A stretch of 36,511 nucleotides of DNA from a bacterium. GTDB taxonomy: Bacteria; Patescibacteriota; Patescibacteriia; UBA9934. Under the pieces are notes generated by a model. The model was not told the DNA's origin. It ran no database searches and saw only the letters and a program-made list of their open reading frames with translations. The DNA is taken from NCBI GenBank assembly GCA_020053275.1, contig JAGVNL010000028.1:1-36511 (forward strand). The letters run 5' to 3'. Positions 11,810 through 19,550 of the stretch are shown one piece after another (the first letter of the stretch is position 1; the number at the start of each line of letters is the position of its first letter). The position numbers were made by a program, and so were the translations under genes.

Positions 11810-12520
11810 ATGCCGAACATGAAACTCGCCGCCAAGGAACCAATCGTCATCTCGCTCGGTGGCTCCCTCATTGTTCCTGACGGTGGCCCAGACATCCATT
11901 TTCTCACCGCCTTCCGTAAATATATTTTAGAGTTGGTAAAGAGCGGCCATAAAATTGTCATCGTTTGTGGTGGCGGCAAAACAGCCAGGCATTACATCAA
12001 CGCCGCGAACGAGGTCATTCATAACATCGACCCTGAAGATCTGGACTGGTTGGGTATTCACGCCACGCGCCTCAATGCGCATCTACTCCGTACACTTTTT
12101 CGTTCAGTCGCTCATCCGAATGTCATAAAACACCCAATGCGCACGCCTCGTCATTGGCACGAAAAAGTATTAGTCGCCGCTGGTTGGAAACCAGGTTGGA
12201 GCACAGATTATGTTGCTTGCCGCATTGCTGGCCTCCTGAAAGTAAAACATATCATCAACGCCAGTAACATTGAATTCGTTTATACCGCAGACCCTCGCAC
12301 CAACCACGACGCCAAGGCAGTCAAGCAAATGAGTTGGGCTGACTACCGCAAAATGGTTGGCAGCGTTTGGTCGCCAGGTCTCTCCGCACCATTTGACCCA
12401 GTCGCCGCCAAATACTGTTCGGGCCACGATATTTCTGTCGCCATCGTCGACGGCCGCAACCTCGTCAACCTAGAAAAAGTTGTCACTGGCGCCGATTTCA
12501 AAGGCACCTTGCTTTCGTAA
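11810..12520 (+). CDS. pyrH: UMP kinase, archaeal-type amino acid kinase family
   Basis: Phosphorylates UMP to UDP for pyrimidine nucleotide synthesis. The N-terminus VISLGGSLIVPDG is the amino acid kinase phosphate-binding segment. IVIVCGGGKTARHYINAA is the second glycine-rich loop, and VYTADPRTNHDAKAVKQMSW matches the nucleotide-binding end region of UMP kinases. At 236 residues with a GGGKTAR loop it looks closer to the archaeal/CPR form than to the E. coli type. The chain ends GTLLS without extension. GAGG lies 11 bases before the start, a weak ribosome binding site at best. Aspartokinase-like relatives are less likely because of the DPRT motif and length. Confidence 0.88.
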   Translation: MPNMKLAAKEPIVISLGGSLIVPDGGPDIHFLTAFRKYILELVKSGHKIVIVCGGGKTARHYINAANEVIHNIDPEDLDWLGIHATRLNAHLLRTLFRSVAHPNVIKHPMRTPRHWHEKVLVAAGWKPGWSTDYVACRIAGLLKVKHIINASNIEFVYTADPRTNHDAKAVKQMSWADYRKMVGSVWSPGLSAPFDPVAAKYCSGHDISVAIVDGRNLVNLEKVVTGADFKGTLLS

Positions 12521-12530
12521 AAAAACAACG

Positions 12531-12550
12531 CTCCCCCAGTTATGGGGGAG
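12531..12550 (-). terminator. Intrinsic terminator of the small gene at 12585-12860
   Basis: CTCCCCCA (12531-12538) pairs with TGGGGGAG (12543-12550) around a four-base loop. Read on the minus strand, the hairpin is followed within three bases by a T-run, so it is best oriented to end the island 1 transcript. It may also act as a weak barrier for pyrH read-through on the plus strand. Confidence 0.75.
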
Positions 12551-12584: not shown

Positions 12585-12860
12585 TTATTTTTTCTTCGCT
12601 TGCAGCAGGATGCCGATGGCCGCCTGCACGATTTCACGGATGTCATCAGTCGGCCTCATGACGGTCACCGCATCGATGAAGCCCGTTAGCGCCCGACGAT
12701 CGCGTTCCAGTTTGTCTCCGTCCATCTCGATCACGGCTTTGATGAAAACGGGGTCACCAATGTTGCCATGAACGCTCAGCTGTAACGAGTTGGGCGGCAG
12801 GGTCGTAACCGTCGCCCTACCGTCATGAATTGCCACTGCGAGAATCATCGTTGCTGACAT
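12585..12860 (-). CDS. Island 1 small protein A, unknown function
   Basis: A 91-residue product starting MSATMILAVAIHDGRATVTT. The start is fixed by a strong Shine-Dalgarno sequence, AAGGAGG, seven bases before the ATG at 12860, although the frame is open to 12938. No signal peptide or membrane helix is seen. The chain alternates beta-like and helical segments and ends in a helix, VQAAIGILLQAKKK. I do not recognise a family. The segment VHGNIGDPVFIKAVIEM-DGDKLER faintly resembles VATGNPGLTGIVEYY-ADKLER of gene D (14085-14384), which occupies the same place in the other cassette copy. It shares the upstream element at 12883-12951 with gene D and is the last gene downstream of the promoter at 13533-13561. 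Confidence 0.65.
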   Translation of the reverse strand: MSATMILAVAIHDGRATVTTLPPNSLQLSVHGNIGDPVFIKAVIEMDGDKLERDRRALTGFIDAVTVMRPTDDIREIVQAAIGILLQAKKK

Positions 12861-12882
12861 GGGAACCTCCTTGTGAAATGTA

Positions 12883-12951
12883 GATGCCCTCACAATCCTC
12901 AACGATAATTGCGTTAAAAACTTTGGGGGCACCGGCAACTCTTACGAGCTG
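12883..12951 (-). promoter_or_regulatory. Conserved intergenic element, copy 1 (upstream of gene A)
   Basis: Read on the minus strand it contains box 1, CAGCTCGTAA (12942-12951), as part of an eight-pair hairpin with a GTAA loop; then a small hairpin, AACG-loop-CGTT; then box 2, CGTTGAGGATTGTGAGGG and four more bases (12883-12904). The same order occurs upstream of gene D at 14418-14506, with box 1 identical and box 2 matching at 20 of 22 bases, while the sequence between differs. This points to a structured RNA leader or a recombination site rather than coding sequence. Confidence 0.55.
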
Positions 12952-13002
12952 CCAGTACGGGGCGACGGGGAAGTGCGTTCCCTCATCGCAAGTCGCTGCC
13001 GA

Positions 13003-13476
13003 TCAGCCGAACTGGGCCATGTCGTCATCATCGGCGAGATCGACGGTGATGTAGCTCACATCATCACCATCATCCTCATCGGAGGAACTGACGAGCTCGC
13101 GCCAGTCGGCACCGTGCCACTCGCTGCGCGGGATGTCGAGGCTGATGTCGAGCGCGCTGACCACGGCGTGCTCGTCGAGCAGTCCTGTGGCCAGGGCCTC
13201 GTGCTTGGTGACGATGACGCTGAGGCCTTCGCAAGTCGCCTCGAGGCACAGCAGACCGAGCTGGTCGAGCGTCGGGCTGTCTTCGGTGGTCAGCCAATTG
13301 CCTTCATGGCGATCGATGAAAGCGACAGCGACTGCGCCATGCCTGTTGTCGAAGAGGGTGTAGACAAGCCCATGTTCGGGTTTGGCAATTTCAGCGAACC
13401 GTTGGGCGGCGAACTGAGCGATGGCGGCCTGGGCGGCGGTGGTGGGGGAGAGAGACGGGTCGTGGACGGTGAGCAT
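13003..13476 (-). CDS. Island 1 protein B, unknown function
   Basis: A 157-residue acidic protein. The ATG at 13476 is preceded by GAGGT at eight bases, and a strong promoter lies at 13533-13561. Visible parts are an Ala-rich helix, TTAAQAAIAQFAAQRFAEI (residues ~12-30), a beta-rich middle, a second helical part around LGLLCLEATCEGLSV, and a very acidic tail, SSSDEDDGDD followed by ADDDD. There is no signal peptide. The helix and the order of segments match protein E (14538-14918): TTxAAQAAI and the later LGL segment align, so the two are probably distant paralogs. Acidic tails of this kind occur in DNA mimics and in chaperone-bound proteins, but that is only a thought. The plus-strand frame over the same DNA is a GC-driven shadow. 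Confidence 0.65.
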   Translation of the reverse strand: MLTVHDPSLSPTTAAQAAIAQFAAQRFAEIAKPEHGLVYTLFDNRHGAVAVAFIDRHEGNWLTTEDSPTLDQLGLLCLEATCEGLSVIVTKHEALATGLLDEHAVVSALDISLDIPRSEWHGADWRELVSSSDEDDGDDVSYITVDLADDDDMAQFG

Positions 13477-13532
13477 TGAACGGACCTCGGTGGGGGTTTT
13501 GAGAGGGTGCGGAATCGCAACAACTCGCCATC

Positions 13533-13561
13533 AAGATAGCCCAAAACCTCTCGTTTGTCAA
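13533..13561 (-). promoter_or_regulatory. Sigma70 promoter of genes B-A
   Basis: On the minus strand TTGACA (13556-13561) and TATCTT (13533-13538) are separated by exactly 17 bases. The -35 box lies in the 82-base repeat; the -10 box lies outside it. The inverted repeat GCTAA-CA-TTAGC (plus-strand reading, 13582-13593) is centred about 60 bases upstream of the expected transcription start, a position typical of activator sites. Confidence 0.75.
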
Positions 13562-13635
13562 GCTCACACTCACATTATTCTGCTAACATTAGCCTTTTCA
13601 GTTCAACCCTTAGGGTTGACCAACCCTAAGGGTTG
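13554..13635. repeat. 82-base direct repeat R, copy 1
   Basis: Matches 15005-15086 at 81 of 82 bases. It holds, in minus-strand order, a 32-base palindrome (arms 13621-13635 and 13604-13618, each arm itself a palindrome around one base), the GCTAA/TTAGC inverted repeat, and the -35 box of the promoter of gene B. Confidence 0.95.
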
Positions 13636-13644
13636 AGTTCACAA

Positions 13645-13699
13645 AACCCGTAGCCGGAGCCACGGGTTGTGTGAATTGTGCTCGACCACGAGGTCGAGC
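13645..13699 (-). terminator. 3' hairpins ending gene C transcription
   Basis: Downstream of gene C on the minus strand come GCTCGACC/GGTCGAGC with a four-base loop (13680-13699), then AACCCGT/ACGGGTT (13645-13668) followed by TTTGTG. A small GAGTC/GACTC stem (13710-13723) overlaps the gene C stop. The second hairpin with its short T-run is the likely terminator. Confidence 0.55.
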
Positions 13700-13720
13700 A
13701 ACGGCGGCGAGTCACAGGAC

Positions 13721-14023
13721 TCAGCTCGGTTGCACTCTCGGCACGATGCCGATGGTCAGAATGACCGGCGGCGGGTGGCGTGTCTGCAGGTTCTGGATCT
13801 CCTCAAGGACGATCCGCCGCAGTCCGATACCCTCACCCTTGGCCTGGCGCCAGTGAATCGCCATGATCAGCTCCTGTTGACGGAACTCGACGGCCTCGAG
13901 GCTGCCGCGCACGAAGGCCATCAGCACATCCTCCTCGGCGAAGCCCTGAGGCCTCTGGCCGGAGTTGCTCACCAGCGTCATGAATCTACCTTCGCAAAAC
14001 ATGACATAAAGAATCCAGGGCAT
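13721..14023 (-). CDS. Island 1 protein C, unknown function
   Basis: A 100-residue protein starting MPWILYVMFCEGRFMTLVSN. The start at 14023 is supported by AAGGAG eight bases upstream. A beta-like N-terminal strand and a long central helix (EEDVLMAFVRGSLEAVEFRQQEL) are visible, then a second amphipathic segment and a hydrophobic C-terminal strand, PPVILTIGIV. There is no signal peptide and no recognisable family. It follows gene D by 61 bases on the same strand and has no counterpart in the other cassette copy. Stacked hairpins follow its stop. Confidence 0.6.
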   Translation of the reverse strand: MPWILYVMFCEGRFMTLVSNSGQRPQGFAEEDVLMAFVRGSLEAVEFRQQELIMAIHWRQAKGEGIGLRRIVLEEIQNLQTRHPPPVILTIGIVPRVQPS

Positions 14024-14084
14024 CGTAGTCTCCTTATGGGTTATTGGGGGTGAAAAACTCCTAGAATAACAGCAGCGAATTAGA

Positions 14085-14384
14085 TCAGCTGCCGATAGCT
14101 AACTCATCCCTGACTGTCAGGTAGAAGTCGTCGCCGTCGCGCACAACATCCAGGCCGAGATCGTCTATCGTCGTACCTAGCGTCATGTGGCGGGTAGTAC
14201 AGCCATCATCATACCTGAACCACAACTTAGTCCGCTCAAGCTTATCGGCGACACTAGAGAAGTAGTACTCGACGATTCCGGTCAGTCCCGGATTACCCGT
14301 TGCTACGAAATCTGTGACTACCAACCCCGCCTCTTCAGACGGGATGATGTGCTGAGTGGCAACTACCATCAAATTCTTGTACAT
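14085..14384 (-). CDS. Island 1 protein D, unknown function
   Basis: A 99-residue acidic protein starting MYKNLMVVATQHIIPSEEAG. The start at 14384 has AGAGGT a few bases upstream. Alternating short strands predominate, ending GDDFYLTVRDELAIGS. No family is recognised and there is no signal peptide. Position, upstream element and a weak match around DKLER link it to gene A; the protein similarity is too weak to prove common origin. It lies downstream of E, with the conserved element at 14418-14506 between them. Confidence 0.6.
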   Translation of the reverse strand: MYKNLMVVATQHIIPSEEAGLVVTDFVATGNPGLTGIVEYYFSSVADKLERTKLWFRYDDGCTTRHMTLGTTIDDLGLDVVRDGDDFYLTVRDELAIGS

Positions 14385-14417
14385 GTTGACCTCTGAGTAT
14401 AGTGCAGCGCTGTATGC

Positions 14418-14506
14418 GATGCCCTCGCAATCCTCGACGAGTCAAACTCGTACAAGAACTCTGAGGGTACCACCGGTCGAACTTAATCGACCGGCGTTAC
14501 GAGCTG
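14418..14506 (-). promoter_or_regulatory. Conserved intergenic element, copy 2 (upstream of gene D)
   Basis: On the minus strand it begins with box 1, CAGCTCGTAA (14497-14506). A hairpin CCGGTCGA-loop-TCGACCGG and a hairpin ACGAGT-TTG-ACTCGT follow. It ends with box 2, CGTCGAGGATTGCGAGGG plus four bases (14418-14439). Boxes 1 and 2 match the copy at 12883-12951, and the hairpins differ in sequence but recur in position. Confidence 0.55.
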
Positions 14507-14537
14507 AAAGACGAAACTCTATCAGCTATAGCGACGA

Positions 14538-14918
14538 CTACTCGCCAGCCCAGTCGATGTCGTAGCAGCCGCCGACGAGCCTGCCCATCTGATAGCGTGC
14601 TACGCTGGCTTCAGCGGAGATGTCCCTGACGATCTCACGCATCGTCTCGATGAGGCAGCTGCCGCCAGCCCGCTTTGAGGCAACGAGCCCCAGCGCCGAC
14701 ACGCTGACGCAGCGCTCGTTCTTGCCGACGGGCCAGCGGTCCTGCTCGGCCTCGTTGTAGAACGAGATGGTGGCATCTACCCAGTCACCGTCGAAGTTCA
14801 GGTAGAACATCACGAACGGCAGGCTGCGGTACATCCGCGCGACATACGCTTCGATGGCGGCCTGAGCTGCGTTGGTGGTGAGGGTGTTGTTGATGTTGTG
14901 AGCGACTATCGGGTACAT
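14538..14918 (-). CDS. Island 1 protein E, unknown function
   Basis: A 126-residue protein starting MYPIVAHNINNTLTTNAAQA. The start at 14918 has GAGGT five bases upstream and a consensus promoter at 14984-15012; the frame is open to 14993. It has an N-terminal helix, TTNAAQAAIEAYVARMY, a beta-rich middle (FVMFYLNFDGDWVDATISFY) and a helical stretch, SALGLVASKRAGGSCLIETMREIVRDI. Protein B has the same order, TTxAAQAAI and an aligned LGL segment. No known family, signal peptide or catalytic motif is recognised. Confidence 0.65.
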   Translation of the reverse strand: MYPIVAHNINNTLTTNAAQAAIEAYVARMYRSLPFVMFYLNFDGDWVDATISFYNEAEQDRWPVGKNERCVSVSALGLVASKRAGGSCLIETMREIVRDISAEASVARYQMGRLVGGCYDIDWAGE

Positions 14919-14983
14919 GAAAACCTCGTTTGGGGGGTTGTGGGTGGAAAACTTGAGCGCCGTTAGAGCCTTCTCAAGGTCAA

Positions 14984-15012
14984 ATAATAGCAAAAAAACG
15001 CCTTTTTGTCAA
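14984..15012 (-). promoter_or_regulatory. Consensus sigma70 promoter of genes E-D-C
   Basis: On the minus strand TTGACA (15007-15012) and TATTAT (14984-14989) are spaced by exactly 17 bases. This is the strongest promoter match in the window. The -35 box belongs to repeat R. The transcript would start near 14977, leaving a leader of about 58 bases before gene E. Confidence 0.8.
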
Positions 15013-15086
15013 GCTCACACCCACATTATTCTGCTAACATTAGCCTTTTCAGTTCAACCCTTAGGGTTGACCAACCCTAAGGGTTG
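15005..15086. repeat. 82-base direct repeat R, copy 2
   Basis: Second copy of the 13554-13635 repeat with one substitution. Its palindrome (15055-15086) also contributes TTGACC to a plus-strand promoter for the HlyD-like gene, so in this copy R lies between two divergent promoters. Confidence 0.95.
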
Positions 15087-18267: not shown

Positions 18268-18654
18268 CTATTGCACCTTCTTTTCGTCGAGACCAGCCCA
18301 CACATCTACTTCGCTTGGCTCAGCTGATACTACCGAGTCGCCTCTGAACGCCTCCCGGTAGGCCGAGTTGCGTAGCAGGATCATATGGAGGTCGTACACC
18401 TCCTGATCATGGCAGTCATCACGGATGATGAGCAGCATTAGCTCAGCTAGGTTTTGCCAAATCTCCCAGGCCTCGCGTTCAGTCCCGAGCCTGGTGCAGC
18501 GCACAGCGAGCACGAACGCGTTACCTTTTGGGCTATCCGACATCTTCTCAATAGCCGCGAGTTCCGCTAGGTACCGCTGCGTGAGCTTGCGTCCGTTTAT
18601 CTTGCCGTCGAACATCTGGCCTAGGGCAAAGAGAATCGCAGGATACGGGTTCAT
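18268..18654 (-). CDS. Island 2 protein F, unknown function
   Basis: A 128-residue, mostly helical protein starting MNPYPAILFALGQMFDGKIN. The start at 18654 is set by AAGGAG six bases upstream; the frame is open to 18840 but would cross the divergent promoter region. The helices LTQRYLAELAAIEKM, EAWEIWQNLAELMLLII and EVYDLHMILLRNSAYREAF are visible, followed by an acidic tail. There is no signal peptide and no family I recognise. It diverges from gene G and has its own terminator. The strong ribosome binding site groups it with the island 1 genes rather than with its housekeeping neighbours. Confidence 0.65.
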   Translation of the reverse strand: MNPYPAILFALGQMFDGKINGRKLTQRYLAELAAIEKMSDSPKGNAFVLAVRCTRLGTEREAWEIWQNLAELMLLIIRDDCHDQEVYDLHMILLRNSAYREAFRGDSVVSAEPSEVDVWAGLDEKKVQ

Positions 18655-18705
18655 GACGACTCCTTGGGAAGTTTGAGGTGGACTTCCTTTATGGTAGGAC
18701 AAAAC

Positions 18706-18734
18706 TTGACTAATAGCCAGTTTTGAGCTATAAA
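18706..18734 (+). promoter_or_regulatory. Sigma70 promoter of gene G
   Basis: TTGACT (18706-18711) and TATAAA (18729-18734) are spaced by 17 bases. Transcription would start near 18741, leaving a leader of about 45 bases before the ATG at 18786. Confidence 0.75.
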
Positions 18735-18785
18735 ATCCCCTCACCTTAGCCACCTCCCAGTCGTTTCTTGCTTTAAGAAGCCACC

Positions 18786-19550
18786 ATGAGTCGGCTAATC
18801 CCTGCCTACTCGAACACTCAAAAGCCCTCACTAGAGGCAAAAAGGAACAAGTTGGAAACTCGCAAACTCATCGCCAAATCTGCCAGCGATCTCGCCTTCC
18901 TCTGCATCGTAGATGTGCAGGAAGGAGACGGCCTCGTCACCCCGCCTGCCGGCGTCACCCTCAAGGCCGGCACCTACCAGCTGTTCATGGAGGAGGGTGC
19001 GCCGCAGCTCGGCACCTTCACGGTCGCCGAGGACGGCACGATCGGCGAGGCCGAGCCGTTCATGCCGCCCGCCTTCGAGGCCGCCGTCAAGCGCATCCTC
19101 GGTGCCATCCTCTACCAGCCGACCCAGGCTGAGCGGTTGAACAGCAAGCTCGACATGCTGGAAGCGGCAGCCGAGGCACTCGACGGCAAGCTGGTCTGCG
19201 ATCACTGCGGCGAGAAGCACAGCTGCGAGGACTTCGGCCACCCGAGGAGCGAGGTGTTGCAGGAGCTCGAGCAGGAGCTCGAGCAGGAGCTCGACGCGCT
19301 GGCCAAGAAGGGGACTCTCTACATCCTGACCGGCCTGCTCGCTGCTCACTCGGAGGTCCTCGACAACTACGGCTACCAGGACAAGACAGAGATCGAGCGC
19401 CAGATCGCCCGCATCCAGGCTCTCCTCGCCTGGCGGCCGCAGCCCGTCGCCGCCGCCGAGCAGCCCGCACCGTCCACCGAGCCTCCGCCGGTCGACGACG
19501 AGGAGTCTGGTCGCCGCAACCCCGACACTGAGGACAGCCCCTCGGTCTAG
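18786..19550 (+). CDS. Island 2 protein G, unknown, with Cys/His cluster
   Basis: A 254-residue protein with a basic N-terminus and a beta-rich part (GVTLKAGTYQLFMEEGAPQLGTFTV). A helical region holds a possible metal site, VCDHCGEKHSCEDFGH (C-x2-C-x4-H-x-C, residues ~138-153). A glutamate-rich coiled coil with the repeated unit ELEQ follows (coded by 12-base repeats at 19263-19294), then two further helices. The C-terminal tail is disordered and rich in Pro and acidic residues. It has a good promoter and terminator but only a weak AAGAAG ribosome binding site. The DNA is clearly GC-richer than the flanks and shows strong GC bias at third positions, which suggests a different origin and also opens long false frames on both strands. 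No family is recognised. Confidence 0.65.
   Translation: MSRLIPAYSNTQKPSLEAKRNKLETRKLIAKSASDLAFLCIVDVQEGDGLVTPPAGVTLKAGTYQLFMEEGAPQLGTFTVAEDGTIGEAEPFMPPAFEAAVKRILGAILYQPTQAERLNSKLDMLEAAAEALDGKLVCDHCGEKHSCEDFGHPRSEVLQELEQELEQELDALAKKGTLYILTGLLAAHSEVLDNYGYQDKTEIERQIARIQALLAWRPQPVAAAEQPAPSTEPPPVDDEESGRRNPDTEDSPSV

Follow-up and report, generated by a model that had tools for sequence, protein, structure and literature searches.

Hairpins placed between cistrons give segmental stability to polycistronic mRNAs, as in the Rhodobacter puf operon, and the early mRNA of phage T7 carries intercistronic RNase III sites. Integron cassettes pair an open reading frame with a structured 3′ site, attC, and hold variable cargo. 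Repetitive extragenic palindromes (REPs) and their paired form (REPINs) share a described layout with the REP-associated tyrosine (RAYT, Y1) transposases (PMC3116915, PMC2817692). Here we analyzed island 1, a group of five small minus-strand genes (A to E) with two intergenic RNA elements, at positions 12585-15086 of a 36,511-nt stretch of a Patescibacteriota genome, a member of Candidatus Uhrbacteria (the window, which is contig 1 of a genome totalling 786 kb in 39 contigs).

The layout described in the original prediction, which had been drawn up from the letters of the window, largely holds: two parallel units on the minus strand, five small open reading frames, a promoter for each unit and boxes between genes. 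We found that these boxes belong to an RNA element that, like the puf and T7 sites, places strong hairpins directly after a cistron within a polycistronic unit. Unlike those sites, it is one recurring architecture with near-invariant letters in its third hairpin, found across genera and beside unrelated cargo. On balance, we lean towards reading the island as small-gene operons, driven by promoters and variable in cargo, that carry a new family of intercistronic RNA; this RNA probably takes part in mRNA processing or protection, a function that we infer.

A three-hairpin RNA element downstream of small genes

The element spans about 80-110 nt and comprises hairpins P1 and P2 and a long hairpin P3 with a conserved mismatch. 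It occurs twice in the window:

14417-14528, minus strand: RNA element W2, with hairpins P1-P2-P3, downstream of the gene E stop codon; P2-P3 core 14420-14503; fold z -7.2; 76.5 bits with covariance model R1; covariation
12882-12993, minus strand: RNA element W1, downstream of the gene B stop codon; P2-P3 core 12885-12961; fold z -6.1; 83.6 bits with covariance model R1

The boxes had been reported to match at 30 of 32 bases. They exist, and form the two arms of a single long hairpin, but the figure was optimistic: the 3′ arm matches at 21 of 23 bases and the whole elements, of about 110 nt, at about 70%.

For comparison we used genome G003, a sister species of the same genus, whose island (locus L049) contains five further copies, X1 to X5. 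All seven copies fold as P1-P2-P3, with z from -4.7 to -7.4 against dinucleotide shuffles. Among six copies that had not been chosen by a model, double-sided changes affect 9 of 26 pairs and 91% of cells are paired, versus 83% when shuffled and 28-53% when slid; with nine copies, such changes reach 15 of 26 pairs and pairing 93.9% (81% shuffled, 31-53% slid). Covariance model R1, built from six copies with X3 left out, recovered X3 at 67 bits. The same model scores the sense strand at 67-88 bits and the antisense strand at 18-34, as expected from conserved G-U pairs, which indicates that the element acts as RNA. Purifying selection on RNA structure appears to account for the similarity between copies. 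Around the P3 mismatch several letters are near-invariant (an A at column 62 in 20 of 20, and columns 64, 72, 85 and 93), and the remainder covaries.

In being a covariation-supported structured RNA near protein genes the element resembles Rfam families, but Rfam gave no gathering-score match in the whole window, and E-values up to 1 returned chance-level matches only across the island, sister and distant loci. Likewise, we found no description of such an element in the open-access literature. The element is a real and apparently undescribed RNA family.

Within the window the element follows genes E and B, and in the sister species it follows most upstream genes. More copies with different cargo, which the original prediction had named as support for a cassette system, were found by searching relatives and the genome: the element stands after unrelated genes in sister and distant genomes. 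Model R1 detected copies in G010 and G049, and a second model added G348 (another family), G029, G001, G031, G022, G046, G018 and G055, along with weaker ones. These related copies belong to Uhrbacteria and one other family and lie behind unrelated small GC-rich genes.

Several of these genomes yielded further observations. A stretch of about 8 kb in G001 (L189, C13:4500-15500) is a run of consecutive small GC-rich open reading frames, several with CxxC pairs, and includes several such spacers, long, structured and partly near-identical. One of its genes is DHH-like by motif, with nothing matching in Pfam, and has a 49-65% identical relative beside elements in G348; searches of viral contigs, plasmids and phages returned no counterpart of this cargo gene. 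Three viral contigs contain the exact P3 core pattern, and we discarded them when the covariance model gave no support. At L155:1895-2010 in G029, an element-like spacer has a P3 seemingly invaded by a CTCCCCCTTACCAAGGGGGAGG-type repeat common in that contig. About 2.3 kb of G049 (L068:838-3110, C5) holds a promoter, few convincing open reading frames and numerous hairpins; it could be one large structured RNA or a series of tiny genes.

Position of the element and its possible role

A same-strand open reading frame, mostly small and GC-rich (about 0.52-0.69), lies upstream of 26 of the 28 copies examined. The position after a stop codon, together with X2 and the second G010 copy, which are operon-terminal, indicates that the element belongs to the upstream gene. 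In many copies the next small open reading frame starts 35-70 nt downstream, a placement that would also suit a cis-regulatory RNA controlling translation or stability of neighbouring cistrons, either in the manner of a riboswitch or by binding a regulatory protein, which might be one of the small proteins encoded here. The near-invariant P3 letters amid covariation similarly suggest a recognised site. However, X2 and the second G010 copy follow the last gene of an operon and have no downstream cistron in their unit, no alternative pairing with a ribosome-binding site stood out in the folds, and several copies per operon would be unusual for riboswitches. We therefore consider cis-regulation possible but doubtful; in its protein-binding form it is a close rival to a role at the cistron end.

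Both units close with terminator-like hairpins:

13638-13700, minus strand: double hairpin downstream of gene C, closing unit 1; similar pair after sister C′ and A′ by reading
12531-12550, minus strand: intrinsic-terminator-like site downstream of gene A, closing unit 2, from the terminator scan

These closing hairpins, and the strong hairpins between genes, would be consistent with elements that act as partial transcription terminators or attenuators and grade expression along the operon. However, none of the seven window and sister copies has a U-run after P3, the terminator scan does not call the elements, and the conserved P3 letters would be needless for termination. We rejected an intrinsic terminator for want of a U-run and regard partial termination as improbable.

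Taken together, the position after the upstream stop, the copies at operon ends, the missing U-run and the G-U pairing favor an intercistronic 3′-end module over a riboswitch, a terminator or attC. Under this proposal, the adjacent P2-P3 hairpins in the polycistronic mRNA would form such a module and would stop or direct RNases, each cistron being processed or protected separately. Separate handling of cistrons could in turn let new cargo join without redesign of the operon.

A number of observations weigh against the end module and the operon reading around it. The gap from stop codon to element ranges from about 0 to 140 nt, the G049 copy sits where there is no clear upstream open reading frame, and no element follows the final genes (C, A, C′ and A′), which end in terminator-like hairpins, nor does one stand at the D-C junction. 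Many distant copies score only 26-40 bits, and the double-sided changes found in all 26 pairs among 20 distant copies come from copies picked by the covariance model, so that these pair statistics lean to structure and give support, not proof. Family- and class-wide scans were prefiltered with few candidates scored per genome, making the observed distribution a lower bound. Mismatches between gene E and its sister ortholog E′ (14538-14918 versus L049:7275-7679) are spread evenly over codon positions (0.25/0.27/0.25), which is odd for a coding gene, though the indels preserve the frame; the neighboring kinase-like gene has the usual 0.14/0.06/0.50. On sequence grounds the anatomy, the RNA structure with its covariation, the recurrence with different cargo and the fixed operator spacing described below can be regarded as established; processing or protection would rest on position and shape.

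Promoters and the composite R module

Each unit has a good sigma-70 promoter (5 promoter-like sites in the scan versus 0.9 in shuffles), which overlaps a copy of an 82-nt module, R:

14984-15012, minus strand: unit 1 promoter, TTGACA-17-TATTAT, its -10 preceded by TG; by reading, the sister species has a nearly identical one
15005-15086, minus strand: R module copy 1; palindrome 15055-15086, operator-like box 15033-15044, -35 at 15007-15012
13533-13561, minus strand: promoter of unit 2, TTGACA-17-TATCTT
13554-13635, minus strand: R module copy 2; palindrome 13604-13636, operator-like box 13582-13593, -35 at 13556-13561; copied after the split from G003

The reported near-identity of the two R copies was borne out (81 of 82 positions, 99%), and similarity extends to 100 nt at 92%. 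The whole module occurs nowhere else in the 786-kb genome, whereas its palindrome and operator box recur separately. R is therefore not one conserved module, as had been thought, but a composite of a REPIN-like dispersed palindrome, an operator-like box GCTAANNTTAGC and a -35. Its first 33 nt (minus strand 5′ to 3′, CAACCCTTAGGGTTGGTCAACCCTAAGGGTTG) are the dispersed palindrome, of which the genome and its relatives hold more copies; GCTAATGTTAGC comes after the palindrome, 20 nt before TTGACA.

As in REPINs, short palindromes form a dispersed inverted pair, here at the tip of R, and a linked transposase is present: two palindrome copies, at C5:9274 and C5:9846, flank a Y1_Tnp gene on contig 5 (IS200-like, RAYT-like; PF01797, E 2.3e-9; C5:9274-9849, equal to L027:3774-4349). 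Unlike in REPINs, the copy number is low, the palindrome is only one component of R, and the RNA element is not this repeat. Another palindrome copy, at G000 C22:1621 (L028), lies by reading within an open reading frame, apparently in frame.

In the sister species, the B′ promoter has neither the operator-like box nor the palindrome, indicating that R at B was copied locally after the species split. The divergence of E and B, in turn, predates that split because E′ and B′ are orthologous to E and B. The original prediction had seen a paradox in modules that stay alike beside diverged proteins and had assumed one duplication with all modules kept alike. That single event is not supported by the timing of the two steps, and the paradox is mostly resolved: the identity of R appears to reflect recent local copying or conversion, which explains a near-identical R beside old, diverged genes. 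What survives of the argument is that non-coding parts recur beside differing cargo.

Recent local copying would also account for the R identity under a plainer history, in which an old tandem duplication and recent promoter gene conversion are joined by hairpins that are ordinary by-products of GC-rich DNA; the R palindrome, as a dispersed repeat that also flanks a Y1 transposase gene, fits it too. We find this very improbable: the fold z values against dinucleotide shuffles, the compensatory changes (also in copies not model-chosen) and the blind recovery of X3 argue against it, as does the occurrence of the element in other genera after unrelated genes.

To follow the operator-like box we searched ten family genomes with the pattern GCTAANNTTAGC-N17-23-TTGAC and obtained 24 placements in seven of the ten, while the pattern read backwards gave 0 matches in the same genomes. 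The spacing from box to -35 is exactly 20 nt in 15 of 19 distinct promoters having a -10, and nearly all of the 19 have an extended -10, TGcTAT. A palindromic operator at fixed spacing from the -35 is the arrangement of a class I activator-dependent regulon, and GCTAANNTTAGC may be an activator site, being centered near -62, the usual class I position. Operator-box promoters precede unrelated orphan small genes elsewhere in the genome and its relatives, and in three genomes they precede similar proteins (3D-domain by reading). On contig 18 of the same genome, such a promoter and a similar three-hairpin spacer (z -5.2) belong to a different small-gene unit; in the G003 island the box is at the first promoter only (C27:42270-42306). 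In the operon reading, this strong sigma-70 promoter with its upstream operator-like palindrome would start expression, an activator would act at the box, and the same promoter type would serve other orphan small genes.

Diverged genes and changing cargo at one slot

The five genes of island 1 are as follows:

14538-14918, minus strand: gene E, 126 aa, family F1 (a helix followed by a beta sheet), first in unit 1; ortholog E′ at L049:7275-7679, about 60% amino acid identity
14085-14384, minus strand: gene D, 99 aa, with weak similarity to F1; corresponds in position to sister gene G
13721-14023, minus strand: gene C, 100 aa, probable family F2, last in unit 1; ortholog C′ at L049:6006-6299; model confidence (predicted local distance difference test, pLDDT) 80.7
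13003-13476, minus strand: gene B, 157 aa, family F1, first in unit 2; ortholog B′ at L049:4558-5073, 48% amino acid identity
12585-12860, minus strand: gene A, 91 aa, probable family F2, last in unit 2; syntenic A′ at L049:4138-4416

As had been stated, none of the five proteins is recognisable: hidden Markov model searches of Pfam, NCBIfam, PHROGs and PADLOC and sequence searches of PDB gave no match, and fold comparisons that started from AlphaFold models of E (pLDDT 68) and C (pLDDT 81) returned nothing significant. E also has no relative among viral contigs. The family relations, by contrast, had been drawn too narrowly. E and B were thought to be alike only through a TTxAAQAAI helix and a few aligned segments, yet they are homologous over most of their length, as diverged paralogs (E versus sister-species B′, 32% identity over 88 aa, E-value 6e-8 in a 13-sequence comparison; E versus B profile-profile, 1e-4), and together with sister gene F they form one family, F1. 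Nor does D pair with A: A pairs with C (profile-profile 6e-4), the two probably making up a second family, F2, and D, whose similarity like that of G is weak, probably belongs to F1.

Between the window and the sister species, ratios of nonsynonymous to synonymous substitution (dN/dS, NG86) are 0.57 for E, 0.50 for B, 0.69 for C and about 1 for A, against 0.05 for the kinase-like gene; codon bias (GC at third positions 0.64-0.85) and saturation make the island values rough. The island genes appear to be fast-evolving and lineage-restricted. The common part of sister genes J and B′ is the last ~45 coding nt and the element only, which looks like a gene front exchanged against a retained 3′ module.

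The slot lies next to a gene (11810-12520) that is kinase-like by reading and has its best named relatives in Candidatus Uhrbacteria, Patescibacteria. The window island reads promoter, E, W2, D, C; promoter, B, W1, A. In G003 the same kinase-like gene is followed by an orthologous, larger minus-strand island: promoter, F, X5, E′, X4, G, X3, H, C′; promoter, J, X2; promoter, B′, X1, A′. In a second sister, G002, only one gene stands between the kinase-like gene and rplJ and rplL; it is unrelated, encodes 78 aa on the minus strand, and has a similar promoter and a double palindrome of another kind. The slot thus holds different gene content among sister species. In genus g7, a small-gene unit with elements adjoins the same xseB/holin neighbors.

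In the window, island 1 shares the interval from the kinase-like gene to rplJ with a set of HlyD/MacB-like efflux genes and a second island. This second island (18268-19550, before rplJ) consists of two orphan genes in opposite orientation, the 254-aa one with CxxC pairs, and is absent from G002 at this slot. The G002 double palindrome (AACGTCACTTGGTGACGTT and a near copy, L054:3200-3245) lies upstream of the promoter of that slot's single small gene.

One open reading frame followed by one structured site, cargo that varies between sister species, and the 3′ end common to J and B′ recall integron cassettes, in which the elements would be folded-DNA recombination sites like attC and the genes mobile cassettes shuffled by a recombinase. 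However, the RYYYAAC/GTTRRRY boxes of attC occur in 0 of 7 copies, orthologous elements are mutually closest (85 and 88%) with gene order kept, and the strand asymmetry and RNA-type covariation with conserved G-U pairs point to RNA. The box test and the element orthology led us to reject attC, leaving it extremely improbable. Of the original proposal of cassettes with variable cargo, the recurrence of element, promoter and slot with unrelated small genes stands, while site-specific shuffling showed no sign in the seven copies; an integron integrase was not searched for.

A broader proposal, which we hold only tentatively and judge unlikely, is that Patescibacteria possess a dedicated expression-cassette system, in which operons under one operator-controlled promoter type hold small genes that diversify fast and are in part exchanged horizontally, each gene capped by an RNA element that a dedicated protein or RNase would recognise, with cargo swapped at fixed slots and expression kept. 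If so, the system could serve variation of proteins facing the host or rivals. A large share of the genes in Patescibacteria is confined to particular lineages and lacks an explanation; with the recurring RNA element and the operator-defined promoter, such genes could be found and grouped through regulatory parts instead of protein similarity. If the element does process or protect each cistron, it would be a modular part explaining how small genes are gained and exchanged in reduced genomes.

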